Virus record (IMG/VR): IMGVR_UViG_3300031226_000003
Location: 1 to 46,147 of that record
Direction: 5' to 3' (one strand)
Length of the DNA stretch: 46,147 nucleotides
Source of the DNA: a virus
Shown: positions 859-42,888 of the stretch, one piece after another
How the letters are laid out: every line of letters starts with the position of its first letter
Numbering within the stretch: the stretch's first letter is position 1
Notes under the pieces: generated by a model
Seen by the model: the letters and a program-made list of their open reading frames with translations, nothing else
What the model was told of the DNA's origin: nothing
The model's database searches: none
Position numbers and translations under genes: made by a program

Positions 859-1302
859 TCAGAGCCCCAAGTCTTCGAGGCTCACATCGTCGGCGGACTC
901 CCGCGCGGCCGCAACGCGGGCTTCGGCCTTTTCGCGCAACTCGGACTCGTGCGCCTTGACGTAGTTCGCGACGAGTTCCTTGTAGTTTGGAACTTTCGAC
1001 TTTTTGATGCCGCGCGAAGCCAACGCGGTGTCGATCGCGAGTTTCGCTTGCGCGGCCATGTCTTGCGCGACCTTGTCGGTAGTCCGCTCGCCCGCCGCAC
1101 GAACTTCGCCCGCATACATCGAGGCGAGTTTCTTTTCAGCCATGCCTCTTGCGTCCTTGCCCGACTCGGCCGTCGCGGATGCGTGGGAGTCCATAAGGAC
1201 ATTGCGAAGGCCGATATAGACCACATGGTCAAGGACATCTTGCGGGAGCCGCTCGACGTCGACGGGAAGAGTGATACCTTTGCCTATTGCGACTTGTAGC
1301 AT
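859..1302 (-). CDS. Early protein with C-terminal LEDLGL tag (147 aa)
   Basis: Not recognised as a known family. It is alanine-, lysine- and glutamate-rich and predicted to be mainly helical, and it ends DDVSLEDLGL. The same terminal LEDLGL ends proteins at 37758, 41836 and 42544. Its second half, a helical region with GIKKSKVPNY followed by a helix ending in AARESA, weakly resembles the second half of the protein at 38429, which suggests distant paralogy (inference). The ATG at 1302 follows AACCGAAAGGCTCTA, a 15-mer found in the same place before the gene at 45864. A weak promoter candidate (TTGTCG-N17-CATAAC) lies upstream. Confidence 0.75.
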   Translation of the reverse strand: MLQVAIGKGITLPVDVERLPQDVLDHVVYIGLRNVLMDSHASATAESGKDARGMAEKKLASMYAGEVRAAGERTTDKVAQDMAAQAKLAIDTALASRGIKKSKVPNYKELVANYVKAHESELREKAEARVAAARESADDVSLEDLGL

Positions 1303-1479
1303 GACACTAGAGCCTTTCGGTTATGGGCCATCCGGCCCGTTTCGACAATGTGAGTATGCCCACCAATCAACTCGGAAGTATATACCTGATTTTGCATATC
1401 AGCCATGCGGACAACGCATAGGTCATCCGACTCTATTGTGCGTTGCACCATAACTCGGCCGCGTCCATTGTGACCCGAG

Positions 1480-1602
1480 CCCCATTGTTGCCCGACACCA
1501 CTGTCTCCCATTGGCAACAGTCCCCATTGCGCCACATGGCCGAGTCGGGTAGTGTGACATGGCCGAGTCGTGTGACACGATACCCCTTGGCCCATTGGCA
1601 AC
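1480..1602. repeat. Iterated CCCATTG boxes and tandem repeat
   Basis: CCCATTGGCAAC occurs twice (1507-1518, 1591-1602) and the shorter CCCATTG also near 1481 and 1524. Between them, ACATGGCCGAGTCG is repeated in tandem (1534-1547, 1557-1570), each copy followed by TGTGACA. Such clusters bind initiator or packaging proteins in other replicons; the role here is inferred. Confidence 0.65.
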
Positions 1603-1645
1603 TGTTGCGCGCCAGCCACTCGTTGCCCGTGGTAACTACTCGCGT

Positions 1646-1663
1646 GGGTGGGTGGGGGTGGGG
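1646..1663 (+). promoter_or_regulatory. G-quadruplex motif
   Basis: Four G tracts (GGG, GGG, GGGGG, GGGG) are separated by single T residues. One-base loops give the most stable class of parallel G-quadruplex. It lies 128 bases upstream of the terminase promoter in the repeat-rich region. Confidence 0.75.
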
Positions 1664-1732
1664 TGACCCCGCCGAGCCGGGGGCCGCTCGCGCCGGCAAG
1701 GCCCTGCGCAAATTTGCTACTGGTTTAATGCC

Positions 1733-1754
1733 ATATATACCCGCTGTATATACC
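1733..1754. promoter_or_regulatory. Tandem ATATATACC / GTATATACC sites
   Basis: ATATATACC (1733-1741) and GTATATACC (1746-1754) are direct repeats centred about 48 bases upstream of the -35 box of the terminase promoter. Similar sites overlap or flank other promoters, so an activator or repressor site for late transcription is plausible. Confidence 0.45.
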
Positions 1755-1790
1755 TTTACCCCCTGCTTGCGCCGCTGGCAACGAAAGTCC

Positions 1791-1819
1791 TTGACAGGCC
1801 TCGCGCGATGTGGTACGCT
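1791..1819 (+). promoter_or_regulatory. Sigma70-type promoter of the late operon
   Basis: TTGACA (1791-1796) and TACGCT (1814-1819) are 17 bases apart. The expected start near 1826 lies below the ATG at 1810, which rules out that codon as the start of the first gene and supports the GTG at 1846. Confidence 0.8.
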
Positions 1820-1845
1820 GGTCGGGACATAAGAGGAGAACGCGA

Positions 1846-4090: not shown

Positions 4091-4099
4091 GAGGCCCTA

Positions 4100-4387
4100 A
4101 TGGGTGATCCGATAGGTGCTGTAAAGAGAATGTTCACCCCACCTGGAACTGGTGGCGTTGAAGCAGCACAACAGCAGGCGAATGCCCTGATCAATGCACC
4201 GCCTGGTTCCGCATCTCCCCTTGCACCTCCGCCGGCTCCAGCAGGTCCACCGGGACTTGCAGGCGGGTCAACCTCAGCACCTTCGGCCTCGACGTTCATA
4301 GGAACCAATCTGCCGGTTAGGCCTCCGTTTACTCCTGGGTCTGCTGGCGCGTCTTCGACACAGCGTAAGAGCCTCTTAGGCCAGTAA
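4100..4387 (+). CDS. Small Pro/Ala/Ser-rich protein (95 aa)
   Basis: Not recognised. The first 30 residues look helical (MGDPIGAVKRMFTPPG and an AQQQANAL stretch), the middle is a low-complexity proline, alanine and glycine linker, and the end is basic (STQRKSLLGQ). Short proteins of this build often lie beside podovirus terminase genes and may be minor virion proteins; that is inference. AGGAGG precedes the ATG and the stop overlaps the next ATG (TAATG). Confidence 0.75.
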   Translation: MGDPIGAVKRMFTPPGTGGVEAAQQQANALINAPPGSASPLAPPPAPAGPPGLAGGSTSAPSASTFIGTNLPVRPPFTPGSAGASSTQRKSLLGQ

Positions 4388-5864: not shown

Positions 5865-6074
5865 ATGCCTGAGGAACCCAAGTATTATCATCATGGCTGT
5901 GGCTCTAGCAGTTCTTGCAACCTCGAGGCTGTGCAGAAGGGCTACACGCAGTTGAAAACGGGCTTGGCCAATACCGCTGAAGGCGCTGGAATGCGGAGCA
6001 AGGCCGAGTTCGACACGATGCTGGCAGACGTTGAAACTCCCCGCGCGACGGGGACTAAGGGCGATCGTGAGTGA
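5865..6074 (+). CDS. Small HGCGS-motif protein 3 (69 aa)
   Basis: Not recognised. It begins MPEEPKYYHHGCGSSSSC and continues LEAVQKGYTQL, the clearest match to the motif of the two preceding genes. The ATG at 5865 follows the previous stop by one base with GGAGGAATGAG as ribosome site. Its stop lies in GTGAGTGA, which also holds the portal start, so the pair is translationally coupled. Confidence 0.7.
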   Translation: MPEEPKYYHHGCGSSSSCNLEAVQKGYTQLKTGLANTAEGAGMRSKAEFDTMLADVETPRATGTKGDRE

Positions 6075-10378: not shown

Positions 10379-10651
10379 ATGCCGTTAGCTCTTAGTGCTA
10401 ACACCTACATCACCAAGACTCAGTGGGTGACGCCCGGACCTTGCCCAGCCCTAGTTCCTATGGGAACTCAGGTTGGTGCCAACACTCCCTATCCTGTTCC
10501 AGTAACAATGGAGCCGCAGGCTGGGGAGTTCTCGGTTCTGGAACTCTACGTTCCGCCGGGAAGGTCTGCTGAGAAAGCCGCTCCTCCGACTCTTGCCCAC
10601 AGCAAGAAGGACGATGAGGAAGAGGAGCACCCCGCGCCCAAAAGGCGCTGA
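10379..10651 (+). CDS. Small protein of the capsid module (90 aa)
   Basis: Not recognised. After an ordered-looking N-terminal half (MPLALSANTYITKTQWVTPG), the C-terminus is highly charged: an acidic DDEEEEH run followed by a basic PAPKRR end. GAGGAGGGTGCA precedes the ATG. It lies between the cement gene and a hairpin and is probably a minor structural protein; this is only inferred from context. Confidence 0.7.
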   Translation: MPLALSANTYITKTQWVTPGPCPALVPMGTQVGANTPYPVPVTMEPQAGEFSVLELYVPPGRSAEKAAPPTLAHSKKDDEEEEHPAPKRR

Positions 10652-10657
10652 GACATC

Positions 10658-10680
10658 GGGAAGGGGTCAGAGCCCTTCCC
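10658..10680. terminator. Hairpin between capsid and tail modules
   Basis: A perfect 8-bp stem, GGGAAGGG with CCCTTCCC, closes a 7-base loop in the 54-base gap between genes. There is no following T run, so it may be a partial terminator, a processing site or an mRNA stabiliser that adjusts capsid versus tail expression. Confidence 0.55.
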
Positions 10681-10705
10681 TATCCGACGTTGCTGGGAGG
10701 TTCAG

Positions 10706-11065
10706 ATGAAGTTTGTTTTGAAGTCAGATCACTACTTTGATGAGCTTGCTCTTGTCCTGCCAAAGGACACGATCATCGAGGCCGCTATCGTCGAGAAGGC
10801 CCCTGGACGACATGGCAAGGTTACTGTGAAGAAGCATGGTAAAGTGACGCTGCCCTTTGCCATTGTCGATAAGGACTATCGTGCAAGGCCGGGCATTCCA
10901 GTAACCGCAACGGTTAAGGAACTCGAGACCGTTTGGGCTGGTCCTCCTTCGATCGAGATGGATGGCCTTGACCCTGAGGCAATCGCGGCCTGTGAGAAGC
11001 GGGTCGAGACCTATATGTCAATCAACGATCTCCCGATCGTTCCAAGTGATGTGAGGCAGAGATGA
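10706..11065 (+). CDS. Unknown virion-module protein (119 aa)
   Basis: Not recognised. It begins MKFVLKSDHYFDELALVLPK, has a glycine- and lysine-rich basic middle (KAPGRHGKVTVKKHGKVTL) and a helical end. The middle looks like beta hairpins. GGGAGGTTCAG precedes the ATG and its stop overlaps the next start (ATGA). Presumably structural by context. Confidence 0.7.
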   Translation: MKFVLKSDHYFDELALVLPKDTIIEAAIVEKAPGRHGKVTVKKHGKVTLPFAIVDKDYRARPGIPVTATVKELETVWAGPPSIEMDGLDPEAIAACEKRVETYMSINDLPIVPSDVRQR

Positions 11066-28981: not shown

Positions 28982-30262
28982 CTACAAAGTCTCTTGGTCT
29001 TTGGGGCCTGGCTTAAACATACTCTTGCCGTCTATGCCAGTACCGACTGGTTCGATCTTACCCCCTCGAACCATAAGCTCTATTAGTCTCATGACCGCGT
29101 GGTGTGGCACTCGCTTGCCAAGGTAGTTTACTATCATCCGCTCGGGTATGGCCTTCTTATTCTTTGTCCAGTACTTCCAGACGATCTCCCAAACTTCATC
29201 CATCATCTGACCATCTGGGGATGAGATCATTGCTTTGAAGATCTCTGGCATATAATTCTCAGCTTCTAAGAGCCATCCCCTGGCTCGTTCAAAGTCCTCG
29301 AGGGTAATGACAAAGCCTCCTCTAGAGACTGCTGCAATGATGCAGAGTTTAAGAACGTGGGCTGTTCGTCTTGGTATATAGTGAAGAAGTTTACCATGCT
29401 CCGGGACTGGTGGGCCGCCAGCAGAATGCCAGGCAATAATTGCGTCGCTTGCATCGGACTCAAAGTTAACTCTGCCGACAATGGTACTGATGGATTTAAT
29501 ATCGTACAGTAGATCACCATATAATTTCTCGAGCCGGTCGAAGGCTTCGTCTTGGAACGGATTGAGGATAACACGGTCTCCTGAATAGACAGGGATACTT
29601 CTTGAAGTAAATCCCTGATCCCATGCGCCTTCAGGAAGGAGGCTATTGAGATAGCTGGGGGTCGTTCCGCTAAGGAGTGATAATATTGGTTTATCAATCT
29701 TAACGTTGACTGAGCGAGTTCTCTTTCGATCTTCGATAGGTTCACCGTCGTACACCTTTGTTAGAAGGTTCATGAACGCTGGTTCGTAGGTTGGCAAGAA
29801 GACACCAAGTTCAGACGCTACTGCAATCACCGCATTATACTCTAGATAGTTGGGGATAGCAGCTGGACGAACGATGCGGCGCTTCGCGTCGGATAGGGTG
29901 TCGATAAGGGAAGCACTACTTACGTTTGAAGGCGCTACCACGATATCAGGTATTGCACGAAGCAAGCGCTCGGATTGCGATAGCACAACACTCTTACCAA
30001 CTCCAGGCGGGCCTACGAGAATTAGGTACAAGTTAGGAAAGAGGTCCATACCCTGAGTACGGACCCACACCCTTCTCTCGAGAACTGCACCTATAGTGCC
30101 GATAGCCGTCCACAACCTGAAGATATCCGGCGACGACAGGATAGACGTAAAGTCACAAAAGCTGTCTATCCAAGACGCTAGTCTCCGGGGTGGCGAGACG
30201 CTTCCGATTATCGGTGTCACTGTACTTTTTGAGTCCGTCACAGTTATCCACCGAGTGAGCAC
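28982..30262 (-). CDS. DUF3987-like replicative ATPase/helicase (about 426 aa)
   Basis: The protein has a P-loop NTPase core: Walker A VGPPGVGKS near residue 88, preceded by DLFPNLYLILVG, a pattern I know from DUF3987-type phage proteins thought to act as replicative helicase or primase-helicase. A winged-helix-like C-terminus (MIVNYLGKRVPHHAVMRLIE) follows. The start is uncertain: GTG 30262 gives a 110-base overlap with the polymerase gene, and GTG codons at 30241 and 30220 are alternatives; none has a strong ribosome site. Confidence 0.78.
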   Translation of the reverse strand: MLTRWITVTDSKSTVTPIIGSVSPPRRLASWIDSFCDFTSILSSPDIFRLWTAIGTIGAVLERRVWVRTQGMDLFPNLYLILVGPPGVGKSVVLSQSERLLRAIPDIVVAPSNVSSASLIDTLSDAKRRIVRPAAIPNYLEYNAVIAVASELGVFLPTYEPAFMNLLTKVYDGEPIEDRKRTRSVNVKIDKPILSLLSGTTPSYLNSLLPEGAWDQGFTSRSIPVYSGDRVILNPFQDEAFDRLEKLYGDLLYDIKSISTIVGRVNFESDASDAIIAWHSAGGPPVPEHGKLLHYIPRRTAHVLKLCIIAAVSRGGFVITLEDFERARGWLLEAENYMPEIFKAMISSPDGQMMDEVWEIVWKYWTKNKKAIPERMIVNYLGKRVPHHAVMRLIELMVRGGKIEPVGTGIDGKSMFKPGPKDQETL

Positions 30263-31652
30263 CCCAATTCCATCCTACCTTTGCTTCGGCTGGAATTGTC
30301 AGTGTTCTCCCGTAGCGAAGTTCAACTGGCACAAGTATTTCCTTGAGCATTGCGGGCACGATTTCATTTTCTCTATCCTCAGGATACTGGATTAAGATTG
30401 CGTCGTGAATTTGTAACAGCACTTGAACCTTCTTGGTGCGCCAGACCTGTAACATTCCACGATTAAGGATGTCGCCGACGGACCCTTGGGGATCATATGC
30501 AATAGCTTCTCGAATTGTCGCATCGTCATCTCTGCGTCCAAAGAACCAGCGCCGCCTTCCCGAAAGAGATACCAGAAATCCGTCTCGGCGGAGGGTCTCG
30601 GCGACTGCTGCGTGCCATCTCTTGTGGGCCGTGAAGGCTGCGAAATAGCGAAGTTGGAAATTAGCAATAAGCTTTTGATCGAGCTTTGTATGCTGGGCCA
30701 TCGTGTAGGGTTGGCCGTTATAGTTAGTTCCATGACCAAGAACCTTTGCCATGTGTCGATATGAATGCTGTCGATAGAAGGGTTGCTCTGCAAGAGCCCT
30801 ATTCGCCTTAATATCATCGGTCCACTTAAGCTGGTCGCCCCACGCCAGACGACAGACTGTGGTGTGGAGGTCTCCGGACTCACAAGCGTCAAGGTAAGTT
30901 CCGTCATGAAACAGGTTCCACTCGATAGCGCCAACGAGTCGGCTTTCAGCTTGTTCGAGATCTATGTAAGCGAACTTCATTCCTGGGTCGGCGACGAAGA
31001 CTCCTCGGAGTCGCTCTTCGACGTTCTGTAAGTTACCGCCGGTTCCGAAGTCACTAAGTGACGAAGAAAATCTGCCAGTTGTCGTTCCAGCAATATTGTA
31101 TGACGTTCGTATTCTTCCGTCTGGATCGACTTCTGTCTTAAGAACCCCAACCTTCTTTGCAATATCTCGCATGTGAAGTATGTAATTAATAATAGGTTGC
31201 GCAACGAAATATTCCTTGAGTTTTTCCAAGGCTGTTCTATCGACTGTAACTCTTCCGCGCCGAATAACTGGAGGGAGTCTGAGCACCTCGTAGAACAGTT
31301 TGTTAAGCTGTTGTGGAGATCGCCAATTAAGGGATGCTGCTCCAACACCGTCTGCGATAATGTCATCGAGATCCTCGGACATCCACTCGATTTCTTGTTC
31401 ATACTTTTTCAAAGCCTCATCACGGGTTTTGAAGGAGATGCGAACACCACGCAAGCGCATCTCGAGAACAGGCTCTTGAAGTTCCATCTCGAATGCGTAG
31501 GTTGACGCGCTTAGGTTATCAAGTTGAGGATGAAGAACGTCAAGGACTTCTGCGGTGACGCAACAATCAAGACCATTGTAAAGCCAGAGCTTCTCTGTCT
31601 CTGACATAGGCATTGTCGCTGGTGTTAACTCGTGAGTTAAGAACTTCTTCAT
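30153..31652 (-). CDS. DNA polymerase, family A polymerase domain
   Basis: This copies the phage genome. The 499 residues hold only the polymerase fold: YNGLDCCVT near 30, motif A YIDLEQAESRL, motif B RHMAKVLGHGTNYNG (with histidine where E. coli Pol I has F762) and motif C QIHDAILI. The exonuclease domain that normally precedes it is encoded by the separate gene at 31788, and the membrane miniprotein gene at 31649 lies between. The ATG at 31652 overlaps the miniprotein stop (ATGA). About 35 residues after the usual WNWG end overlap the next gene. Confidence 0.93.
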   Translation of the reverse strand: MKKFLTHELTPATMPMSETEKLWLYNGLDCCVTAEVLDVLHPQLDNLSASTYAFEMELQEPVLEMRLRGVRISFKTRDEALKKYEQEIEWMSEDLDDIIADGVGAASLNWRSPQQLNKLFYEVLRLPPVIRRGRVTVDRTALEKLKEYFVAQPIINYILHMRDIAKKVGVLKTEVDPDGRIRTSYNIAGTTTGRFSSSLSDFGTGGNLQNVEERLRGVFVADPGMKFAYIDLEQAESRLVGAIEWNLFHDGTYLDACESGDLHTTVCRLAWGDQLKWTDDIKANRALAEQPFYRQHSYRHMAKVLGHGTNYNGQPYTMAQHTKLDQKLIANFQLRYFAAFTAHKRWHAAVAETLRRDGFLVSLSGRRRWFFGRRDDDATIREAIAYDPQGSVGDILNRGMLQVWRTKKVQVLLQIHDAILIQYPEDRENEIVPAMLKEILVPVELRYGRTLTIPAEAKVGWNWGAHSVDNCDGLKKYSDTDNRKRLATPETSVLDRQLL

Positions 31653-31795
31653 AGCGTGACCGTTAGAGTTAGAACCGCGGCCGCAAGCCAGTAGATCGCT
31701 CTTCGCCAGTCAGCATAGCATAAGTAAACAATAGATGCTGCCAAATCAAGGATGATCAGCAGGGTAGGAAAGAATGACTTGACAAGTTCACTCAT
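31649..31795 (-). CDS. 48-aa two-helix membrane miniprotein inside the split polymerase
   Basis: The ATG at 31795 lies in ATGAGTGA with the exonuclease stop, and its own stop overlaps the polymerase ATG, so three genes are coupled. The peptide opens MSELVKSFFPTLLIILDLAA and has two hydrophobic helices (about 7-27 and 33-47) joined by ADWRRA. Function is unknown; tethering replication proteins to the membrane or a holin-like role are guesses. An in-frame ATG six codons earlier is also possible. Confidence 0.68.
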   Translation of the reverse strand: MSELVKSFFPTLLIILDLAASIVYLCYADWRRAIYWLAAAVLTLTVTL

Positions 31796-32876
31796 CTCGC
31801 TTGATCGTGCCATGCTTACCCCTGCTTCGCATGAGTTTCCAGCTGGCTTCATTGGTGTAGACACTTCCAAGAAAGCCAAGCCCCTTCTGGGCTTCCGGCT
31901 GAAGGGAGTGATGTAAGAGCATTGTATCATCGGCAAAGTTCCTGACGACTATACCGTAGGTTCTCCATAAGAAAGTGATATCGTACAGACCGTTTTGGGC
32001 TGTTTTGGGACATGGCAGATCGAGCACTTTAGTGACCCACCACCAGGCGTCGCACTCAGCTGCAGCACTAGGCCAGTAACTTCCAGAACTTCCTCGTGGG
32101 TCAACAAAAGGGACAACGATAGCGCTTCCTGAGTTTGGACTGAACCCAATGCAAGTAATCTGATTGCCTGCAGTTTCCACGTCAAAGGCAATGCGCTCTG
32201 CTCTAACGAGGTGCTCGTCATAATACTGTTCCATATCCTCGAGCAATGGCTCGATATAGATCTCTCTTACTGGTCGTCGGACTTCTCTGAACGCGGCTTC
32301 CCTTTTCGTTTTGGTAAGATCGAGGACTGTGACTGGTCGGAGACTCCAGTCTCTGAGGACAGCTGCTGGGTGGTAGATCGGGATAGCCTTACCGTAAGGT
32401 GAGTTGGTGACAGTGCCGCGTATTTTACTAATTCCCGAATTGCGCAGGACTGCCCACGTAGCCGTATTTCCCAGAAGGACGGTAATGACTGGCTGCACAT
32501 TGGACAGTTCACTAGCCAGACGGTCGAGATGTCCCTTGTATTCAGCTCGAATATACTTGCCTGGTCTAAGAGGGGGCAGTCCAAGTTTATCCTCGGCTTT
32601 CGGGCCACAAAGTTTTTCAATGTCATTGCGCTCTGGCCTAAGGTTGAAGACGTTAGTTGTGAAGAACTGAGGATAGCGATCCCAAAGAAGGGCGACATAG
32701 ATAGGGTTGCGAGTAAACCACCACTGCTTGATAAGGTCGCGGTCAGTAGCATTAAGGGAAACAAGGCCAGCATCATGCATCATCTCGAACAGGGCAACGC
32801 CCGACGAGCCAACAAGTGCACGCTGGAGCTTTGCCTCGTTCTCACCCCATGCTTCACCGACGAATGCTATCGTCAT
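31788..32876 (-). CDS. UDG-like domain fused to 3'-5' exonuclease (polymerase N-terminal part)
   Basis: Residues 1-205 resemble family 4 uracil-DNA glycosylases: GEAWGENEA, TNVFNLRPERND, then HPAAVLRDW. Such a domain also opens the SPO1-type phage DNA polymerases. Residues 215-340 form a DnaQ-like proofreading exonuclease: Exo I AFDVET, Exo II QNGLYDITFL, Exo III FADDTMLLHHSL. The protein stops at GTIKRDE, just where the polymerase domain continues in other phages, so this is the N-terminal half of a split polymerase. The glycosylase part may be structural or inactive. Confidence 0.9.
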   Translation of the reverse strand: MTIAFVGEAWGENEAKLQRALVGSSGVALFEMMHDAGLVSLNATDRDLIKQWWFTRNPIYVALLWDRYPQFFTTNVFNLRPERNDIEKLCGPKAEDKLGLPPLRPGKYIRAEYKGHLDRLASELSNVQPVITVLLGNTATWAVLRNSGISKIRGTVTNSPYGKAIPIYHPAAVLRDWSLRPVTVLDLTKTKREAAFREVRRPVREIYIEPLLEDMEQYYDEHLVRAERIAFDVETAGNQITCIGFSPNSGSAIVVPFVDPRGSSGSYWPSAAAECDAWWWVTKVLDLPCPKTAQNGLYDITFLWRTYGIVVRNFADDTMLLHHSLQPEAQKGLGFLGSVYTNEASWKLMRSRGKHGTIKRDE

Positions 32877-33630: not shown

Positions 33631-33962
33631 GGCCTGGACTCCAGTGCGTGGCGGGCAAGCGTCCTGATCCACGGTGGGACACTGGTATCATCGGCCAAGG
33701 CCTGCAGCGCAGCCCGCAGCTGCTCGTTGTCTAGGCGCAGGGCGTGCTCGCTCGCGGTGATCTCTGTTGCAATGCGTTGCCAGTTTTCAGCCTTGGGCGT
33801 CAGCCACTCGATCTCGCGGTTGTGAGCAAGCTGCATGGCCAGCATGTCGGCATCGTGCTTGCGGGACTGTTGTGCAACCAGCGCCATCAGCCGCTCTATC
33901 TCGGCCTCAGCCTCTTCTAGATGCTTTCTCAGCCGCTCAATTTCAAGAATTTCAAGTGTCAT
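33627..33962 (-). CDS. Coiled-coil protein A (111 aa)
   Basis: Residues 3-60 are a long coiled coil (EILEIERLRKHLEEAEAEIE and onward). The ATG overlaps the methyltransferase stop (ATGA). It is the first of three tandem coiled-coil genes that seem richer in G and C than their neighbours, which hints at acquisition or local duplication. Function unknown. Confidence 0.7.
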   Translation of the reverse strand: MTLEILEIERLRKHLEEAEAEIERLMALVAQQSRKHDADMLAMQLAHNREIEWLTPKAENWQRIATEITASEHALRLDNEQLRAALQALADDTSVPPWIRTLARHALESRP

Positions 33963-35233
33963 GACGCCTTCCTCAATCGCCGGAACTTATTCAACTCGAT
34001 CCGCGCTCCTTCAGCGAAGACTTCATCAACCTCCAGGCCCTGAACGAAGCTCGCACCGAGCGACTCAGCCGCTCGCAGCGAAGAACCAGAACCACAGGTC
34101 GGGTCGAGCATAGTGCTACTCTCGTCAACGAACATTTCGAAGAAGTGCCGCAACATTGGTTCTGGTTTAATAGACATATGGATGTCTCGAACCGTAGGCG
34201 CAGAATAGGCATTACTTTTGCTACGAACGATAAGGCGGTCTCCTCTGGAGCCAAATAGCGCTGTCTCATAAATCCTCCTTGGACCCCGTTGTGGATCAGG
34301 TATGATACCAGCGTTGTCAGACTTTATCCAAACAAGGGGGAAAGGATCAAAAAGAAAAGGAGAATTATTAGTGAGATAATCGAGAGTGAATTGATAGTGC
34401 TGCATAGAAAACCAGAACATAAGATGAGCTGACTCAGAAGATAGTCTATCAGCGTTAGAACAAAGACAGTGCATAAGGTCATGATAGTGATCCAACGTGT
34501 CACGATAACCTCCATGTGTATCGGCTGCTCCTTGCACATGCTTGTCGGCGTTGATACCGTAGGGAAAGTCGCAATGAATGAAGTTAAAACGTGGGCCAGA
34601 ATATGCTGGTGCCCACTTAAGAAAGTCTGCGTTAAGGATTGATTGTGACTCGGGCTTGGGCTTATCCAACTCGATGTCTTGGAAGTGTTCAAGGTCAACA
34701 GCGCGCTTGCGTTCTTCCCTGCGTTCAACAATGCCAAGGGCAGTTGAATACATAGGCGCGGCGGCGACAGTCTCATTGCCCTGACGGAGTTCCTGTGCTA
34801 CTAAGATTTGCTTTGATACCGTCGGTTGCGACAGCCCAATGGCTTCGCCGGTATCCTTGTGCGACCAAGTGGGATCGTCCTGGCGACGAAGCTCGTGAAA
34901 ATCGAGGACAGCCATCGCGTTCTCTTGCCAAGTAAGATCGAGACGCTTGATGTTCTCTTCGAGTTCGATCGCACGCATCTCCTTCGGATCAAGTTCGTCC
35001 GAGTACTGAGCGTTGATGTGCGTCCAGCCCAGGACTTTGCAAGCGGCCAGACGGCACTCGCCTGCAAGAAGGACGTTCTCGGTATTCACTACGATAGGAT
35101 GGATTAGCCCACGCTTGTTAATTGAATAGGCAAGCTCGTTAATGTGACTTTCCTTTAGAACTTTTCGTTGCCGGTTCTCCCGATCGGTGAGGATAGTGCT
35201 GATCTCAATCGAATGGAAGCGACCGGAAGTCAT
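33959..35233 (-). CDS. ParB-like domain fused to a DNA methyltransferase
   Basis: Residues 5-95 form a ParB/sulfiredoxin-like domain (INKRGLIHPIVV, then LAGECRLAACKVLGW), 120-150 a helix-turn-helix (DTGEAIGLSQPTVSKQILVA), and about 195-424 an amino-methyltransferase. Its catalytic motif is DFPYG (222-226) in place of the usual DPPY, and the AdoMet motif DPTCGSGS (377-384) comes after it, the order of beta-class N4-cytosine or N6-adenine enzymes. Such fusions occur in phages and may modify DNA against restriction or regulate transcription. The palindromic element lies just upstream. Confidence 0.88.
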   Translation of the reverse strand: MTSGRFHSIEISTILTDRENRQRKVLKESHINELAYSINKRGLIHPIVVNTENVLLAGECRLAACKVLGWTHINAQYSDELDPKEMRAIELEENIKRLDLTWQENAMAVLDFHELRRQDDPTWSHKDTGEAIGLSQPTVSKQILVAQELRQGNETVAAAPMYSTALGIVERREERKRAVDLEHFQDIELDKPKPESQSILNADFLKWAPAYSGPRFNFIHCDFPYGINADKHVQGAADTHGGYRDTLDHYHDLMHCLCSNADRLSSESAHLMFWFSMQHYQFTLDYLTNNSPFLFDPFPLVWIKSDNAGIIPDPQRGPRRIYETALFGSRGDRLIVRSKSNAYSAPTVRDIHMSIKPEPMLRHFFEMFVDESSTMLDPTCGSGSSLRAAESLGASFVQGLEVDEVFAEGARIELNKFRRLRKAS

Positions 35234-35345: not shown

Positions 35346-35813
35346 CTACACGCGCGCCATTCCTGCGACCTCGTGATACATTCTCGTCCCATCTTGGGAT
35401 GGAACTTGACGCAAGGTCACAAGCACCTGACGGCCAGGAGCCTCTGCCGCGGCTTCACGGAGGGACTTGCCTTTGCCGTCGATATTGAGCGGACCAGTGA
35501 GGAAGTCCTTGTACCGATACGAAGCCTCACCAGAAAGGTAGAACCGACAGGACTGGCCTTTGATGACCTTACCTGTAACCGGCCCATTGTCCTCAGTATA
35601 TCGCTGCAATTGGGCTGCGTCGATATCGCCCTTGCCTCCGTCACCGATAACACGGAAAGCATATTCGTGGTAGTTCGTGCCGGTCTTGGCCACGCCGGGA
35701 GTCGGCGGGCCGTCCACGATGGTCAGGAACGTCCCTCCCGGCAACGGGCTCGGCGGTTTGATGTCGTCCATCTTCTTGTCGAGGATGTTTTCGAAGTTCG
35801 GTCTTTCGTCCAT
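35346..35813 (-). CDS. Unknown protein next to the recombinase, possible SSB (155 aa)
   Basis: Not recognised with certainty. It begins MDERPNFENILDKKMDDIKP, then looks beta-rich (TFLTIVDGPPTPGV, YHEYAFRVIG, RQVLVTLRQVPSQDGT). Placement directly after the Sak4-like recombinase is where many phages keep a single-strand DNA-binding partner, so that is a reasonable guess. ATG 35813 has a perfect GGAGGTTAGA site; an upstream ATG four codons earlier overlaps that site. Confidence 0.65.
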   Translation of the reverse strand: MDERPNFENILDKKMDDIKPPSPLPGGTFLTIVDGPPTPGVAKTGTNYHEYAFRVIGDGGKGDIDAAQLQRYTEDNGPVTGKVIKGQSCRFYLSGEASYRYKDFLTGPLNIDGKGKSLREAAAEAPGRQVLVTLRQVPSQDGTRMYHEVAGMARV

Positions 35814-35829
35814 TCTAACCTCCATTCGA

Positions 35830-36606
35830 TTATGATCTGACGGTTTTGAAGAATGTTGCCAGGGCTGACTCGATCGGGAGAACTTCTCCCATCTCGAAGG
35901 ACTTAGGGTTCTTCAGATCTATCATCGCCGTGCTGACTGTCCTAATAGATCTCTTGCCACCTGCCGCCGATTGGCATAGAGCGGTGGAGTTAAAGTAAGC
36001 AGGGATCGTCGGGCCAAGGGCACTGCCCACGGCAGTCGGGTATCCTCGCTTAGTGCCATCAGGCATGTCAGAGTATTTGACATGAGAAATCACGATGACA
36101 TTACAGTGAAAGCTTTCGCTAGTCAAGAGGGCAAGAGTGTTCTCAACCGCTTGCTGCGCAACGTAGTAGATCTGCCGCTTGTCCTTGGCACCGGGATTGA
36201 GGGCGTTCGCCCAATTGTATGCAGCGCCGTCGGCGAAGAAAGTGAGGCTATCTAGGACAAGGATAGTCTCAGGACCAAAGGTCGAGGGAACACCAAAGTC
36301 ACCCCACTTGTTCAAGAGAGAACAGGCTCGGGTGAAGGCTGTTGGCATCCCTTGCACGATAGGGCCAGCAGGTCCTGCCATGTAGGCATCACGAAGAGTT
36401 TCGAACTGGACGTTAGCAAGCTTGCTTGCATCGAAGCGCTTGATGACGCTTACAAGAGTGTCCAAACCATTATCGAAATCAAGAATAAAGAGCTTATAGC
36501 CAGCAAGAACCAGGGAAGCCAGGGAGCCGGTTTTCCCACTTCCTGACTCCCCTATTAAGAGGAGCTTGGTGAATTGTGCTGATTGGTGTTCAGAGAGGCC
36601 CGGCAT
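35830..36606 (-). CDS. Sak4-like RecA-family recombination ATPase
   Basis: Sak4 proteins are short RecA-fold ATPases that anneal or exchange strands in phage recombination. The 258 residues show Walker A GESGSGKT (19-26), an LFILDFDNGL strand near 40 and Walker B TILVLDSLTFF near 115, with the CNVIVISHVKY strand near 170. Size and motifs fit the AAA_24/Sak4 group. The nuclease gene upstream and a possible SSB downstream suggest a recombination module. Confidence 0.84.
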   Translation of the reverse strand: MPGLSEHQSAQFTKLLLIGESGSGKTGSLASLVLAGYKLFILDFDNGLDTLVSVIKRFDASKLANVQFETLRDAYMAGPAGPIVQGMPTAFTRACSLLNKWGDFGVPSTFGPETILVLDSLTFFADGAAYNWANALNPGAKDKRQIYYVAQQAVENTLALLTSESFHCNVIVISHVKYSDMPDGTKRGYPTAVGSALGPTIPAYFNSTALCQSAAGGKRSIRTVSTAMIDLKNPKSFEMGEVLPIESALATFFKTVRS

Positions 36607-36808
36607 GTACGCTCGTTGTGTTGACCTGGAGGAGGTTTAAGAGTTGAACCATGCGAGTGATCGCACCGATCTCAGCAGTTGCCAACGGGACGGTGAGAAT
36701 GTGTTGGCCATCGAGATCAATATAACCATACTCTCCGGTCGCGTCAACCGAACCAGGATAGGTCCAAGTGACGACCGTGCTCGTTACCTCGGGGACAGCG
36801 GGTTCCAT
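36590..36808 (-). CDS. Unknown small protein (72 aa)
   Basis: Not recognised. The first half looks beta-stranded (VVTWTYPGSV, YGYIDLDGQHIL) and the second half helical. It overlaps the nuclease gene by 25 bases and the recombinase gene by 17, so all three are probably translated together. It may be an accessory subunit of either neighbour. Confidence 0.65.
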   Translation of the reverse strand: MEPAVPEVTSTVVTWTYPGSVDATGEYGYIDLDGQHILTVPLATAEIGAITRMVQLLNLLQVNTTSVHAGPL

Positions 36809-37761
36809 TTTCTAACCTCAAAGTTGGATTGAAGGTAAGTGTCGCGGACGCCAGGGCTCTTCGAGCAGACCTCTCGGAAGCGACAGCCCATGCAGGCGGT
36901 GTCGTTCATAGGCCAGTACTCATGCTTGGCAAATGCTTCTGCCATGCGGAGCCAGTACTCGAGATCGTGTAACCACTCGGACGTGGCGTCGGGTGACCTG
37001 GGGGTCAAGCCCCGTTCCGGCCTGGAGAAGCCAACGGCAGTCTGCACCGCATCCACAAGCACACCTTGCGCCGGAATGTTGTAGACCACCTGTGCCGCGG
37101 CCGTGTAGAGACTCATCTGATTGTCGGGATTGTACTGATCGAAGTAGTAAGAGCCTACTGTTTTGTCGGTGGTCTTCCGGTCCATTGCATAGGCTGCTCC
37201 GGCAAATTCACAAAGTCTGTCCAAGTGACCACAGACCAAGTAAGTTGTTTCGTCAAGAGGGTACTTGGACTCGAAGTTAATCTTAATATTAGTGGGCATC
37301 CTGAAAGATAGCTCGATTGCTGGCTTTCCGTTGGCCAGGATGATTGTCTTAGCAGGGTCTTCTTGATAATGTTCGAGATACCAGACGACGGATCGGACAA
37401 GGGTCTCGCGGTTTTTAGTAGGGCTATCGCTATCCCAGTTGTAGGTGCGAACGAGAAGCTTAAATACCGTCTCGAGTTCTGCTGCGTCATGGTTCAGGCC
37501 TTCGGCCTTGCCGTTCTCATAGTCGTGCATGGCCTGGTGAAATTCGATACCGAAGTATAGATGGAAGGAAGGCCTGCCTTGATAGCCCCGGATCATGCTG
37601 TACTCGTAGAGCCGTGGGCATTTCTTGAGCTGGCCAAGGGAAGTGGAGTCCCAAGCCCATTGCATCTTTGTACCGGGAAGGAAAGGGCTCGGTCCAACGG
37701 GAAGTGGAGGAAGCTCGGGGGTTCCGATCTCATCCATCATGCGGTCAAGCACGTCGGTCAT
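36784..37761 (-). CDS. Cas4/AddB-type PD-(D/E)XK nuclease with Fe-S cluster
   Basis: The nuclease core shows GIEFHQAMHDY near residue 77, CGHLDRL near 175 and YAMDRKTT near 190, giving the conserved His, Asp and DxK residues. Four cysteines arranged as one N-terminal (KKCPRLYEY) and three C-terminal (CMGCRFREVC) match the iron-sulfur clasp of Cas4, Dna2 and AddB nucleases. Such phage proteins process DNA ends for recombination. It overlaps the LEDLGL-tagged gene upstream by four bases. Confidence 0.88.
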   Translation of the reverse strand: MTDVLDRMMDEIGTPELPPLPVGPSPFLPGTKMQWAWDSTSLGQLKKCPRLYEYSMIRGYQGRPSFHLYFGIEFHQAMHDYENGKAEGLNHDAAELETVFKLLVRTYNWDSDSPTKNRETLVRSVVWYLEHYQEDPAKTIILANGKPAIELSFRMPTNIKINFESKYPLDETTYLVCGHLDRLCEFAGAAYAMDRKTTDKTVGSYYFDQYNPDNQMSLYTAAAQVVYNIPAQGVLVDAVQTAVGFSRPERGLTPRSPDATSEWLHDLEYWLRMAEAFAKHEYWPMNDTACMGCRFREVCSKSPGVRDTYLQSNFEVRKWNPLSPR

Positions 37762-37985
37762 AGCCCAAGATCCTCCAACGAAAGTTTGCCCTTCTCGCCT
37801 TTCGGAGCGACGTTCTTCATGGCACCTGCGGTTTTCTGACCAAGCATGAACTGCGCGCGGGCTGCACGCAATCGCTCGATCAGGGGAAGCAACGGATCGG
37901 GCAGGCCTTGTTCACGAGCCTCCCGACGCTTGAGCGTTAGCTGAAGTGGGTCCGTTGCAAAGAGGTCTGCAAGACTATCAGTCAT
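37758..37985 (-). CDS. LEDLGL-tagged small protein (75 aa)
   Basis: Not recognised. A helical middle (KRREAREQGLPDPLLPLIER, then LRAARAQFMLG) is followed by a flexible KNVAPKGEKGK linker and the terminal KLSLEDLGL. The tail is encoded by codons different from those of the other three copies. The stop overlaps the ATG/GTG region of the Fe-S nuclease (four bases), so the pair may be functionally linked. Confidence 0.75.
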   Translation of the reverse strand: MTDSLADLFATDPLQLTLKRREAREQGLPDPLLPLIERLRAARAQFMLGQKTAGAMKNVAPKGEKGKLSLEDLGL

Positions 37986-38418: not shown

Positions 38419-38428
38419 CAGACCGCCG

Positions 38429-38962
38429 TTAGGCAGCCTGTTGCTTGTTCTCGGGCTGCAATTCCCGAATGAGGCTATCGAGATCGTCGGCCACCTCTTT
38501 GGCCGCAGTCTTGGCCTGCTCGACGCGATCGGCAGCCATGTCCCAAATGTCGGGACGCTTGCCGGAGTCGATCAGGTTCCGAGCCAGGTCGGTAACGACC
38601 TTCATCGGGTAGTCAGTGACCTTGCGGCCGCTGGACTTGATCTTGTCCTTCACGATGCCAACTGCAATGGCAATCGCCTCGGACCTCACGGGGTCTCGCC
38701 GACCACCGCCACCAGCACGGTTGCCGAACTCATATGCCTCGGCGTAGGACGAAACCGCCGTCTGGATCGCAGCGTGGTCTTGCGCAGCAGAAAGCATGTC
38801 CTTGATCTGCTTGCGGATATTGTTGCCGACGTTCTCACGAAACACCTGATTGAGCTGCGATGCCTCGTTCGCGGAAAGCACATCGCCTTCCTTGTAGGGC
38901 TCGATGACTTCAAAGGTTTGACCCTCGATTGTCATCTGAGCAATGGGATAAGTCTCTGCCAT
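38429..38962 (-). CDS. Unknown early protein, helical (177 aa)
   Basis: I recognise this as a conserved phage protein type but know no function. After a short strand-rich N-terminus (TIEGQTFEVIEPYKEGDVLS) it has LNQVFRENVGNNIRKQIKDM, a basic GGGGRRDPVRSEAIAIAVG segment and a long C-terminal helix ending KQQAA. Its own promoter candidate with an overlapping palindrome upstream and a terminator downstream make it a single-gene unit, which suggests high expression, perhaps a nucleic-acid-binding protein. The second half weakly resembles that of the protein at 859. Confidence 0.75.
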   Translation of the reverse strand: MAETYPIAQMTIEGQTFEVIEPYKEGDVLSANEASQLNQVFRENVGNNIRKQIKDMLSAAQDHAAIQTAVSSYAEAYEFGNRAGGGGRRDPVRSEAIAIAVGIVKDKIKSSGRKVTDYPMKVVTDLARNLIDSGKRPDIWDMAADRVEQAKTAAKEVADDLDSLIRELQPENKQQAA

Positions 38963-39006
38963 TTTCCGTCCTCTCTTGAGCTAAACGTTGATACTGTAAC
39001 ACAGCA

Positions 39007-39035: not shown

Positions 39036-39379
39036 GCTTCTGATTGACTTTTCTTATCTTCTTTAAACGCCGTCTCATATATCAGGTCGAGACGACGAGA
39101 GTATTTTTGTAGCTTTTCAGCTGCGAAGTCGTGAAACTTCTCTGTAAGTTTTTCCAAGGGAACTTCAAGATCGTCATTGGCCTCGGCTAGCATCTCGACA
39201 GCATCTAGCATACAGGCATACTTGTGTGCGGTCATACCTGTACGATACATATCCATGCGAGTTTCTTTTGGGAGATCTCGATCCCTGGCGCGTTCAAGCA
39301 CAATGAAAAGAAAGACCTCGAGTTTGGTGGTTAACGAGGCTTCTTCAAGTGCCTTCTTCAAGGTGGGCGATACGGTCAT
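39032..39379 (-). CDS. Unknown helical protein (115 aa)
   Basis: Not recognised. All-helical and charged, with a MYRTGMTAHKYACMLDAVEM segment near residue 47 and a Lys/Glu-rich C-terminus. It starts in ATGA overlap with the gene upstream. No cysteine pairs or membrane segments point to a function. Confidence 0.7.
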   Translation of the reverse strand: MTVSPTLKKALEEASLTTKLEVFLFIVLERARDRDLPKETRMDMYRTGMTAHKYACMLDAVEMLAEANDDLEVPLEKLTEKFHDFAAEKLQKYSRRLDLIYETAFKEDKKSQSEA

Positions 39380-39702
39380 AGGTCCTCCACTTCGTACATA
39401 TCGCTGGATCGGCGTTCGATTATAAGCGTGGTAGAGTCTGGACTTTCTTCGGGTGGTATGCGGAGTTGCAGTGTGTCATAGATAGAGGCGTTGTGGTTCG
39501 GATCATCCTCTGGATAGACCTTGGCATTGGCCTTGCGATCCGTAGCACGGAACTTATTCATCCTGTGTCGAAGCCGGATAGCAGCACCACGGGTGCCAAG
39601 GCGAACTCTAATCCCGTTGCCTCCCTCTTCGATGCGGGCAAGGGCCTTCTCAAAGAGGTCACGAACGTCGTCGAAGGCAAGCACGTTGTTAAGCGGACCC
39701 AT
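39376..39702 (-). CDS. Unknown basic protein (108 aa)
   Basis: Not recognised. A GIRVRLGTRGAAIRLRHRMN segment near residue 30 is strongly basic and could bind nucleic acid; a DTLQLRIPPEESPDSTTLII stretch follows. The chain ends MYEVEDL, which only partly recalls the LEDLGL tag of other early proteins. It overlaps the helicase stop by 14 bases. Confidence 0.68.
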   Translation of the reverse strand: MGPLNNVLAFDDVRDLFEKALARIEEGGNGIRVRLGTRGAAIRLRHRMNKFRATDRKANAKVYPEDDPNHNASIYDTLQLRIPPEESPDSTTLIIERRSSDMYEVEDL

Positions 39703-41143
39703 TGCTAAATCCTGTCATGCTGGCAAGGAAGAGATCTTCCTTTGGACGGGTCTCGATGACGTATTTAACGTTCTTCTCTTGTTCGATGTCCTCGTCATGA
39801 ATTGCCCATTTCGAGGGGATGCGCCAGGGGTCCAGATGAAATACTGTGTCCCATTCAAGACCCTTAGCTTTATGTCCACTGAGAAGTTGGATGGGTCCTT
39901 CACATTTAAAAAGATGCTCTGCGTAGCCAATGGCTTCAGAAAGGGTGTTTCCGAAACCAGCAAAGACACGAAGACATTCTGCCTTGTCATGTATCACCCC
40001 TGGGTTACGAGCCTTGATAAGATGTTCCTCGACCCAAGAGTTGATGGCGTCAAGGGTCTGGGTTTGAGTCATTGACTCGGGTCCGAGCTTCTTCATCACG
40101 CGAACAAGGCCAGGACCAAGGTCAGTGCCAACGAGCTGACAACCACGACTGGCCTTGAGAAGGCCAAGGGCCATGCTGTACAAGGGCGCGTTGTTACGGC
40201 AGATGATTGCAGCACCGTCAGGGACGTGAGACTCGTCCCACTGTTCCAAGGGAATGATCCTACCCTCTGGCGCACCATCACGCCACTTCATATGCGGCGC
40301 GCGTTCCCTGGCTCGACGAACGATCGAGATAGGGTTTCTAAAGGAAATGCTGAGGAGCATCTCCTGCATGGAGAAGCGATCCTTGAGCATCATCATTGAG
40401 CGCGTATGCGCTCCTCGAAAAGCGTAGATGCTTTGGTAGGGATCGCCAACAGCCATGAACCGTTCGACAACCAGCTTGTCGAGCATCCGATGGTTCAGGG
40501 GCGAAAGGTCTTGAGACTCATCGCACATGACCAAGCGGAACTGTGGCCAGCTGCCTCCGAAGATTGTTGGCATATAGATCTGGTCATCGAAGTCGATGAA
40601 GCCACCATAGGAAAGGTTAATGCTTCGATGCAGAACTTCCTCGACCGCGGTGTAGACCAGATCTGAAGGCTCTTCATCGAGGGATGAATAGAACTGTTCA
40701 GTAGTAATAATCCGTTCAATGTCTGGGTACTTGCCAACAGGTACATAGCCCACGGACTTGGCCTTGCGAACGATATCGAGAACTTCACCGAAGTCAAGTG
40801 CAGTTCTCATACCCTTCGACACCTCACCAAGGTAGCCACTGAGGATCGTGCCGGACTTCTTAGTGTCAACGATCAAGCGTCGGTTGACTGACTTAGCCCA
40901 AGCGCCGTGGCCAATGCTGTTAAGCGTCTTGCAGAGAGTGTTTGGCGGAAGACGTTTGCTGAGGGTATCAGCGATCCGCTTGTTGAAAGCTAAGGAGAGA
41001 ATAGGCTTGTCAGAAGGAAGGACCTTGCAAATTAGCTCAAGGGTTGTGGTCTTGGCTGCACCTGCAAGGGCGTTGATTAGAAGGCTCGCCTCCGTTGTAA
41101 CGGCGGCCTCGAGGATTGCCTTCTGTTCTTCAGTGGGGGTCAT
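39689..41143 (-). CDS. UvrD/PcrA-like superfamily 1 DNA helicase (484 aa)
   Basis: It unwinds DNA using ATP, probably in replication or recombination. Motifs seen are Walker A ALAGAAKTTTL (about 24-34, with Ala-Ala before the Lys instead of the usual Gly-rich loop), Walker B LVMCDESQD near 205, motif III AVGDPYQSIYAFRGA near 232 and motif V LLSGHKAKGLEWDTVF near 418. ATG 41143 follows GAAAGGGCAAACC; a GTG five codons earlier lies in that site. The chain is short for UvrD, lacking the large insert domains. Confidence 0.9.
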   Translation of the reverse strand: MTPTEEQKAILEAAVTTEASLLINALAGAAKTTTLELICKVLPSDKPILSLAFNKRIADTLSKRLPPNTLCKTLNSIGHGAWAKSVNRRLIVDTKKSGTILSGYLGEVSKGMRTALDFGEVLDIVRKAKSVGYVPVGKYPDIERIITTEQFYSSLDEEPSDLVYTAVEEVLHRSINLSYGGFIDFDDQIYMPTIFGGSWPQFRLVMCDESQDLSPLNHRMLDKLVVERFMAVGDPYQSIYAFRGAHTRSMMMLKDRFSMQEMLLSISFRNPISIVRRARERAPHMKWRDGAPEGRIIPLEQWDESHVPDGAAIICRNNAPLYSMALGLLKASRGCQLVGTDLGPGLVRVMKKLGPESMTQTQTLDAINSWVEEHLIKARNPGVIHDKAECLRVFAGFGNTLSEAIGYAEHLFKCEGPIQLLSGHKAKGLEWDTVFHLDPWRIPSKWAIHDEDIEQEKNVKYVIETRPKEDLFLASMTGFSNGSA

Positions 41144-41154
41144 GGTTTGCCCTT

Positions 41155-41352
41155 TCACGGGATGATGAGTTTACTACGCGAACTTGCCATCTCGAGGTTA
41201 TAGAGACGCTCACGCATCCCTTTGAAGTTCTCGGCGATCTTGTCCCAGGGCTTATCCGATTGATGTCGAGCCATACGCTTGGCTGCATCCTCGGCCTGTT
41301 TCAAGCCGTCGATCATGACGTAGAAGAGATCGTGTTCTTGAGGGGTGGTCAC
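41155..41352 (-). CDS. Unknown small protein (65 aa)
   Basis: Not recognised. Probably helical and charged (YVMIDGLKQAEDAAKRMARH). It starts at a GTG in GTGA overlap with the stop of the gene upstream, and lies 11 bases before the helicase ATG. Confidence 0.6.
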   Translation of the reverse strand: MTTPQEHDLFYVMIDGLKQAEDAAKRMARHQSDKPWDKIAENFKGMRERLYNLEMASSRSKLIIP

Positions 41353-41630
41353 GACGCAGGGCCTTTCTGCACGACCTTCGGCATGGCCGATTGCTGCGTG
41401 GGGTTCGGGTGCTGACGTACTTGCGCCGGCTGATCTACTGAGACAAACCGTGCGCGTTCCTGCAACACGATGCCCCGGACTTTCTCGAGCATACCGAGCA
41501 TCATGTCAAGACGAGCAACATGCTCGAAGTCTTCTTGTTGCCTAGAGTACCGAATGTCGTCGCCTCTATTGCGAGCGGACTCGGCCATCCGCTGAAGCGC
41601 AATCTCGATATCAGTTAGTCTGTCGCTCAT
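41349..41630 (-). CDS. Unknown small protein (93 aa)
   Basis: Not recognised. A helical N-terminal two-thirds (MSDRLTDIEIALQRMAESAR and on) leads to a Gln/Pro-rich flexible tail. The ATG overlaps the upstream stop (ATGA). Confidence 0.65.
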   Translation of the reverse strand: MSDRLTDIEIALQRMAESARNRGDDIRYSRQQEDFEHVARLDMMLGMLEKVRGIVLQERARFVSVDQPAQVRQHPNPTQQSAMPKVVQKGPAS

Positions 41631-41839
41631 GTGAACCTCTCAATAAAGGCTTTCGCCTCGTTGGCGTTTTGCTTCTCAACGATATGAAGAGCAATCATGA
41701 CGATAGCAGAGTTCATTTGCGTTTGCGGATGCTTGTTCATATCGAACACGAAACCTTCAAGGGCGTTTTGGATCTGGCCCTTGCTTAGTTCTGCAAGCCC
41801 ACGAAGCTTGCACCAAGCGATATGTTCTTCTCTTGTCAT
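41627..41839 (-). CDS. Unknown small protein (70 aa)
   Basis: Not recognised. It begins MTREEHIAWCKLRGLAELSK and is helical throughout. ATG 41839 overlaps the stop of the LEDLGL-tagged gene (TTATGA), which fixes this start against a longer frame to 41926 that would run inside that gene. Confidence 0.68.
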   Translation of the reverse strand: MTREEHIAWCKLRGLAELSKGQIQNALEGFVFDMNKHPQTQMNSAIVMIALHIVEKQNANEAKAFIERFT

Positions 41840-42231
41840 AAACCAAGATCCTCGAGTGAGAGTGCAACAGCGGGCTGAGCCTTTGGCTTCTCGTAGACCT
41901 TGACCGCTGCGTAGTGATCGGGCCAATCCTCAGGAACCTTCTCCTGCATAGAGACAGGACAGATGTGATAACCTTCGTACCCTATGTCTGAGCTATCTAC
42001 TAAGTCATCTAGTTCCCATGTCTTGAAGGGATAAGCACGATGGCCAGAGGTTGGAATGATCCAGCCTTCTTCATCGCCGATCATGATCTTCTCGGCAACG
42101 TCAAAGGCGGCCTCGCCTCGGACCTTGTGAAGGATTAAGTGTGTCACAGTTCTCTCCTTGCATTTACCTCTGGCCACGCACTCAGGTGATATCCAATCAG
42201 CAATCTGACAGGAGCACCTGAAGTGCTTCAT
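41836..42231 (-). CDS. LEDLGL-tagged protein with Cys-rich N-terminus (131 aa)
   Basis: Not recognised. The N-terminus MKHFRCSCQIADWISPEC, then VARGKC, offers four cysteines for metal binding. A mixed middle (GDEEGWIIPTSGHRAYPFK) and a flexible KPKAQPAVA linker lead to the terminal LSLEDLGL. ATG 42231 overlaps the stop of the 25-residue microprotein (ATGA). An internal GTG at 42147 has a better ribosome site (AAGGAGAGAACT) and could give a 103-residue form without the cysteines. Confidence 0.7.
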   Translation of the reverse strand: MKHFRCSCQIADWISPECVARGKCKERTVTHLILHKVRGEAAFDVAEKIMIGDEEGWIIPTSGHRAYPFKTWELDDLVDSSDIGYEGYHICPVSMQEKVPEDWPDHYAAVKVYEKPKAQPAVALSLEDLGL

Positions 42232-42305
42232 CGGATTGGCACCTGACAGTGGGTTAGAACGAGAAAGAGAAAGGCACAAATGCCTATGATTATCAGCCGC
42301 TTCAT
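42228..42305 (-). CDS. 25-aa membrane microprotein, lipobox-like
   Basis: The peptide begins MKRLIIIGICAFLFLVLTHC and ends QVPIR. Basic start, hydrophobic core and LTHC-Q resemble a short signal or lipoprotein sequence, although the lipobox is imperfect and little would remain after cleavage. Its ATG and its stop each overlap the neighbouring genes by four bases, which is strong evidence for translation. Confidence 0.55.
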   Translation of the reverse strand: MKRLIIIGICAFLFLVLTHCQVPIR

Positions 42306-42547
42306 GGCTTCATCCTTGTCGAGTGAAAGATGGCCATGAAGTTACAGCCGTTCTTCTGGATATCAGTGACTGCAGGGCACGCATTGCAGGTGCCGCTTTG
42401 GTGAAAGGTGTTTGGGGTCTCGATGGTCAGGCGATTGCCACAACCAATACAAGTGAACTTTTGATAGACAGTGCCGCCCGTGGCAATAACCACCTCAGCA
42501 GCTGCGACAGCCTCCTCGAAGGACCAGTCCTTAAACTCTTCTGTCAT
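42302..42547 (-). CDS. Small zinc-ribbon protein (81 aa)
   Basis: After an acidic helical start (TEEFKDWSFEEAVAAAEVV), two CxxC pairs (FTCIGCGNRL and GTCNACPAVT, 18 residues apart) form a likely zinc ribbon. A further cysteine follows in KNGCNFMAIFH. Function is unknown; such proteins often bind nucleic acid or other proteins. Linked by ATGA overlaps on both sides. Confidence 0.72.
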   Translation of the reverse strand: MTEEFKDWSFEEAVAAAEVVIATGGTVYQKFTCIGCGNRLTIETPNTFHQSGTCNACPAVTDIQKNGCNFMAIFHSTRMKP

Positions 42548-42888
42548 AGGCCCAAGTCCTCTAGGGTTAGCTCGCCAACCTTCTGGGGCTTGACAGTGCT
42601 GCGCCGCATTAGCTTGAGCATTTCGTCGATGTCATACTGGACCGGATCGCCCTTGCTGCCGATCGTTGACTTCTGGTTCTCACGAGCCATCTGAGCGCGG
42701 TCGCGGAGCAAGTTCAGGATGAACTGCCAGCCCGTTTGACTGGAAGAGTTCTTGACAACGTGGCAGCGATCCAGCGGAATGACCTTGGTGCTTGCACGTT
42801 CATCGCCAACTGGCGGAACGCCGATCATCAAGCGATCGCCAACAAGCCAAATGCTGACGGCACAAGCCGGAAGTGGATAGTCACGCAT
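42544..42888 (-). CDS. LEDLGL-tagged protein (114 aa)
   Basis: Not recognised. The first half looks strand-rich (AVSIWLVGDRLMIGVPPVGD), the second helical (FILNLLRDRAQMA, YDIDEMLKLMRR), then a VKPQKVGE linker and the tail LTLEDLGL. A serine in the other tagged proteins is threonine here. It overlaps the gene upstream by eight bases and the zinc-ribbon gene by four. Confidence 0.75.
   Translation of the reverse strand: MRDYPLPACAVSIWLVGDRLMIGVPPVGDERASTKVIPLDRCHVVKNSSSQTGWQFILNLLRDRAQMARENQKSTIGSKGDPVQYDIDEMLKLMRRSTVKPQKVGELTLEDLGL

Follow-up and report, generated by a model that had tools for sequence, protein, structure and literature searches.

In phage T4, the clamp gp45 is bound by the hydrophobic, acidic C-termini of gp43 (the polymerase) and of two transcription factors, gp55 and gp33; these ends can be exchanged for one another and are also functional at internal positions (PMC2988020). 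T7 gp4 docks through its acidic C-terminal tails on basic patches of the A-family polymerase gp5 (PMC12593628), the beta-clamp peptide of E. coli Pol IV is RQLVLGL, with a Gln that is reportedly important, not essential (PMC11139829), and import into the jumbo-phage nucleus is reported to depend on a recognition surface, not a terminal signal sequence (PMC11087766). Here we analysed a 46,147-nucleotide stretch of viral DNA (IMG/VR record IMGVR_UViG_3300031226_000003, positions 1 to 46,147; hereafter the window), in which four small proteins, TagA to TagD, end in the residues LEDLGL. We found that this tag is real and family-wide and that it is phage-specific, with the consensus [ILV][DST]Lx[DE]LGL, drifting between phages and matching within one. 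The LEDLGL ends are probably a short linear docking tag by which unrelated early phage proteins bind one common partner.

A six-frame scan of the window recovered exactly four LEDLGL-ending proteins, all on the minus strand and at the positions given in a preliminary description of this DNA (Table 1), and no fifth stop-ended copy. That description had also held their bodies to be unrelated, and the carriers did fall into separate sequence clusters once the last 10 residues were removed, with the refinement that TagB and p38429, which is untagged, are distantly related paralogues. Profile searches of the carriers against Pfam, PHROG and PDB gave no useful relatives, and TagD had no match among annotated phages. 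TagA, encoded just upstream of the exonuclease gene, consists of an N-terminal two-helix domain (xELFxRDPLxLT...), a flexible linker and then LEDLGL; the TagC open reading frame (ORF) has an alternative opening at 42279. We propose a docking tail on anatomical grounds, since a Leu-rich peptide that is conserved follows a small folded body and a linker that varies.

The prevalence of the tag in relatives was assessed by counting ORFs of at least 45 amino acids in 80 relatives and the window. A strict motif ended 105 of 5102 early-strand ORFs vs. 6 of 5092 on the opposite strand, which serves as a fair internal control for a motif that was defined after the data were seen. A second set of 78 loci, partly overlapping with the first, gave 44 early-strand and 3 opposite-strand endings, and over whole contigs the tags were confined to early-strand proteins. 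When 2.9 million viral contigs were scanned at the DNA level for LEDLGL followed by a stop, 35 stretches matched, an undercount since the pattern used spans only a subset of codons; the only contigs with at least two matches were those of L005 and L069, both in this phage family, which encode five and three LEDLGL proteins, respectively.

The tag was present on orthologues of TagA, TagB, TagC and TagD in many phages, and on further unrelated families. Loss of the tail from all four sets of orthologues, named in the preliminary description as a refuting outcome, was not observed. TagA orthologues occurred in 130 of the loci examined and TagD orthologues in 54 loci, while tagged TagC orthologues were found in L005, L012, L013, L020, L049 and L174, and the TagB orthologue of L005 (72% identical) likewise ends in SLEDLGL. 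Orthologues whose bodies have diverged and whose linkers have changed still retain the tag, and the tag codons of the four window ORFs are unlike one another (CTCGAAGACTTGGGGCTC, TTGGAGGATCTTGGGCTA, CTCGAGGATCTTGGTTTA and CTAGAGGACTTGGGCCTA), which bears out the proposal of conservation at the protein level. A recent and functionless gene conversion or duplication of the DNA end would also leave proteins of one phage with a common end, but it is contradicted by the many differing third codon positions and by retention of the tag beside diverged bodies and changed linkers, such that we give it next to no credence. Tandem tag copies occur in L018, L019, L023 and L033, and in some relatives 1–4 further residues follow the tag. 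The tail has the acidic and hydrophobic character first ascribed to it, but the tandem copies and the added residues indicate that a free C-terminal end is not strictly essential.

We also searched for recurrent C-termini contig by contig, in a way not based on LEDLGL, and found that the tag, described beforehand as an identical LEDLGL end, takes phage-specific forms across the family. L024, L025 and L054 had LADLGL, LAELGL or LADIGL as shared ends, L042 had DLADLGLL, L044 DLSDLGIL and DLKDLGIL, L046 LHDLGLL types, L053 DLGELSL, DLGELKL and ELGALQL, and L071 TIEDLGL. Matching within a phage was evident as three early-strand copies of SLADLGL on the contig of L074, as three of TLEDLGL in one phage, and as SLEDLGL, SLEELGL and TLEELGL in L013. 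A basic variant is also matched inside L026, where the products of 5992–6261 and 10514–10855 end in DIGLKK and DIGLKKPKA.

Tag similarity between carriers within one phage was then compared with 2000 shuffled pairings over 125 non-redundant contigs. Similarity exceeded the shuffled value for TagA and TagC (20.6 vs. 6.4), TagA and TagE (16.8 vs. 12.9) and TagA and TagB (5.3 vs. 1.5), with 0 of 2000 shuffles reaching the observed value in each case, and for TagA and TagD (8.65 vs. 6.48; 20 of 2000). Such matching would follow automatically if the carriers self-associated through their tags, with no separate hub, and some TagA proteins do have two tag copies; short acidic tails bear like charges, however, and there is no positive evidence for self-association, which we consider improbable.

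Relatives in a sister clade without the ParB-methyltransferase often have an additional basic end, consisting of [KR]RR and a hydrophobic residue. On ParB-less contigs this end was carried by TagA (32 of 47), TagC (10 of 12), Sak4 (26 of 62) and p39376 (24 of 47), while on ParB-positive contigs it was absent from all four (0 of 54, 0 of 9, 0 of 60 and 0 of 32, respectively). Many TagA and TagC proteins of the ParB-less clade keep LxxLGL, followed by a short linker and then the basic end (e.g. DLLAKLGLIKHVEPMSRRSW). The basic variants are also alike within a phage, with IKRRKL ending three L168 proteins and KRRSW two L176 proteins, and further matches in L154 (VRRL, two proteins) and L172 (INRRA and IKRRA). 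Among contigs lacking basic tails, 59 of 77 had the ParB-methyltransferase gene, vs. 0 of 32 among those with such tails, and a gene presence/absence scan for a receptor of the basic tail found no clade-specific gene, the ParB-methyltransferase alone being missing there. A few charge-switched columns between the clades were seen in the helicase, exonuclease, Sak4, polymerase and primase, and none in the SSB-like protein, a comparison confounded by phylogeny.

These tails bear on the possibility that a ClpX-like protease or unfoldase recognises the tag and so times the removal or remodelling of early proteins. MuA has a basic C-terminal ClpX tag, which the sister-clade tails superficially resemble, and the tag is C-terminal. 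Yet LEDLGL lacks the Ala-Ala of SsrA-type (LAA-like) ends, tandem and slightly internal copies exist, and near-identity within a phage combined with drift between phages is unexpected for one conserved host unfoldase, which makes a degradation signal a poor explanation.

A shared docking tag is instead supported by the number of carriers (four in the window and five in L005, from several unrelated families), by the strand bias in both counts, by within-phage matching above that of shuffled pairings, by the matched basic tail on the same carriers in the sister clade, by the tandem doubling and by the precedent of the T4 gp43, gp55 and gp33 tails. In the mechanism we propose, tags on flexible tails would all bind the same site of one partner, for which a replisome or recombination component encoded by the phage is the most likely candidate. 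This partner would act as a toolbelt that brings accessory proteins together on phage DNA, and it would diverge along with the tags, such that each phage would have its own version. From the gene neighbours we infer a replication context for the tag.

Potential partners were assessed using AlphaFold2 on read-through chains, in which stops were read as Gly and neighbouring same-frame genes were joined into one chain. The first chain, from L040, comprised TagA, the exonuclease, Sak4 and the SSB-like protein, and the second, from L022, the helicase, p38429, p38126 and TagA. In both, the two helices of the TagA body were confidently folded and the tail was disordered, as expected of a docking peptide, and a Foldseek comparison of the L040 chain confirmed folds of the RAD51/RadA and RecE/AdnA types. 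Two results weigh against a docking tag. First, no confident docking of the tail was predicted on the exonuclease, Sak4, the SSB-like protein, the helicase, p38429 or p38126, though these are weak negatives given single chains, shallow alignments and artificial linkers; the docking peptide of the preliminary description is upheld in so far as unrelated early proteins share a tail that resembles one, and not as predicted docking on the six modelled candidates. Second, a tag resembled that of its own phage more than that of the nearest relative with only moderate excess (TagA and TagC, 11 to 3; TagD and TagE, 7 to 2; TagA and TagD, 17 to 14), which indicates that part of the within-phage matching is due to shared descent.

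The polymerase halves, the primase, p37978 and host proteins remain candidate partners. One possible partner, which narrows the docking-tag explanation along the lines of the T7 gp4 tail on gp5 (PMC12593628), is the DNA polymerase or primase of the phage: the polymerase matches the phage DNA polymerase family phrog_17, and polymerase and primase genes occur in the two tag clades as well as in Caulobacter phage Kuura, although the tag is short and Leu-rich and not a long acidic stretch. A host hub such as the sliding clamp DnaN, whose ligand peptides are QLxLF or QxxLx(F/L), is an unlikely target. LxxLGL does resemble the Pol IV peptide at its LGL end, the Gln being reportedly important but not essential (PMC11139829), and DnaN or PCNA-type clamps had no family match in 16 family contigs (a gp45 model was uninformative, matching neither these sequences nor its control). 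A plain host beta-clamp motif is nonetheless unlikely because Leu replaces the usual first Gln, as read from the listed LEDLGL-type tails, the tail-count pattern itself excluding Gln. Strong variation between phages with matching inside each is also not what a highly conserved host groove would be expected to impose on a motif, and the basic tails are unlike clamp ligands.

The minus strand of the window holds a replication and recombination module and the terminase is on the plus strand (Table 1); the presumed early character of minus-strand genes is drawn from this module. In IMG/VR, the family comprised 84 stretches by helicase and at least 478 contigs by exonuclease match. The family is large and nearly uncultured, with Kuura as the closest cultured relative found (polymerase 38.9% and exonuclease 33.6% identical to those of the window), and L005 as the nearest relative (helicase 79% identical). 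No near DNA relatives of the window were found in an annotated phage collection, and host assignment by genome scan returned only two metagenome bins (Actinomycetes and Anaerolineales), which were uninformative.

Table 1 Coordinates of tagged proteins and neighbouring genes in the window.
Feature	Coordinates	Strand	Remarks
TagB, 147-amino-acid early protein	859..1302	-	ends VSLEDLGL; LEDLGL codons 862-879
Primase/helicase	28982..30262	-	candidate partner
DNA polymerase, polymerase half	30153..31652	-	phrog_17; candidate partner
DNA polymerase, N-terminal half	31788..32876	-	phrog_17; candidate partner
ParB-methyltransferase	33959..35233	-	
SSB-like protein	35346..35825	-	named by position alone; no database match
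Sak4-like RecA-fold ATPase	35830..36606	-	untagged in window; basic tail in ParB-less clade
PD-(D/E)XK exonuclease (RecE/AdnA type)	36784..37761	-	
TagA, 75-amino-acid protein	37758..37985	-	ends LSLEDLGL; LEDLGL codons 37761-37778
p38429, untagged TagB paralogue	38429..38962	-	conserved between helicase and TagA
p39376	39376..39702	-	untagged in window, ends YEVEDL; basic tail in ParB-less clade
UvrD-type helicase	39689..41158	-	phrog_1967
TagC, 131-amino-acid protein	41836..42231	-	ends LSLEDLGL; LEDLGL codons 41839-41856
TagD, 114-amino-acid protein	42544..42888	-	ends LTLEDLGL; LEDLGL codons 42547-42564

Several further features of the module were observed. The split of the DNA polymerase into two ORFs is kept in relatives, with a single protein in L086 and L087, and its N-terminal half opens with a VGEAWGENE motif, which we take to be reminiscent of uracil-DNA glycosylases. 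The exonuclease has an invariant C-terminal WxPLxxR in the alignment, and an iron-sulphur cluster is suggested by cysteines that are conserved in it. A possible protease signal is the Ala-Ala at which many p38429 orthologues terminate (EKAA, GLAA). More distant phages (L085, L086, L087 and L090) have early proteins with similar ends, such as VDTDALLAGLE and IDADELLAGLE (MW202489), IDSEALLAKFA (Microcystis phage Mel-JY34), and IDDLLSTL and NIDDLFSE (Kuura), so tagging of this sort may extend beyond this phage family.

More speculatively, the tags could form an address code, in which each phage would label its own set of early proteins at the C-terminus with a word private to it. A hub encoded by the phage and diverging along with the word would read it, assemble a phage-only replication body and exclude the proteins of competing phages, with the sister clade using a two-word code (LxxLGL and the basic [KR]RR tail). 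If the docking tag is real, a set of uncharacterised small phage proteins would be parts of one machine whose members could be found in every genome from sequence alone, the many genomes would provide a natural experiment in tag–partner co-evolution, and the tag peptide would serve as a bait for direct identification of the hub.

Literature searches, within the coverage searched, found no described system with a shared C-terminal tag of this kind on phage proteins, in agreement with the preliminary description. Its suggested likeness to the SSB tail did not hold, as the LEDLGL ends lack a DDDIPF-type terminus (an Asp run, then Ile-Pro-Phe). Selectivity for phage proteins would be phage-specific here as in jumbo-phage nucleus import, which is reported to use a recognition surface where this system has a terminal tag. 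The beta-clamp motif of Pol IV is likewise a C-terminal hexapeptide ending in LGL, but the tag has Leu for Gln at position 1 and drifts in a phage-specific manner. As in T7 gp4, a phage C-terminal tail is proposed to dock on a replisome component; the T7 tail acts by charge, whereas the window tails have no long acidic C-terminal stretch and what the several carriers share is a brief motif rich in Leu. The T4 tails differ in that here the carriers are four to five small proteins of unassigned family, neither polymerase half is tagged in the window (ends TSVLDRQLL and HGTIKRDE), no DnaN or PCNA-type clamp gene was found in 16 family contigs, the tags diverge strongly between related phages and the sister clade adds a basic tail. 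The tag cannot yet be counted among clamp tails of the T4 kind. The analogy to gp33 and gp55 drawn beforehand is nevertheless supported, as in both cases one hydrophobic and acidic C-terminal peptide follows divergent linkers on several unrelated phage proteins. The tag most probably acts in the manner of a docking tail common to its carriers.

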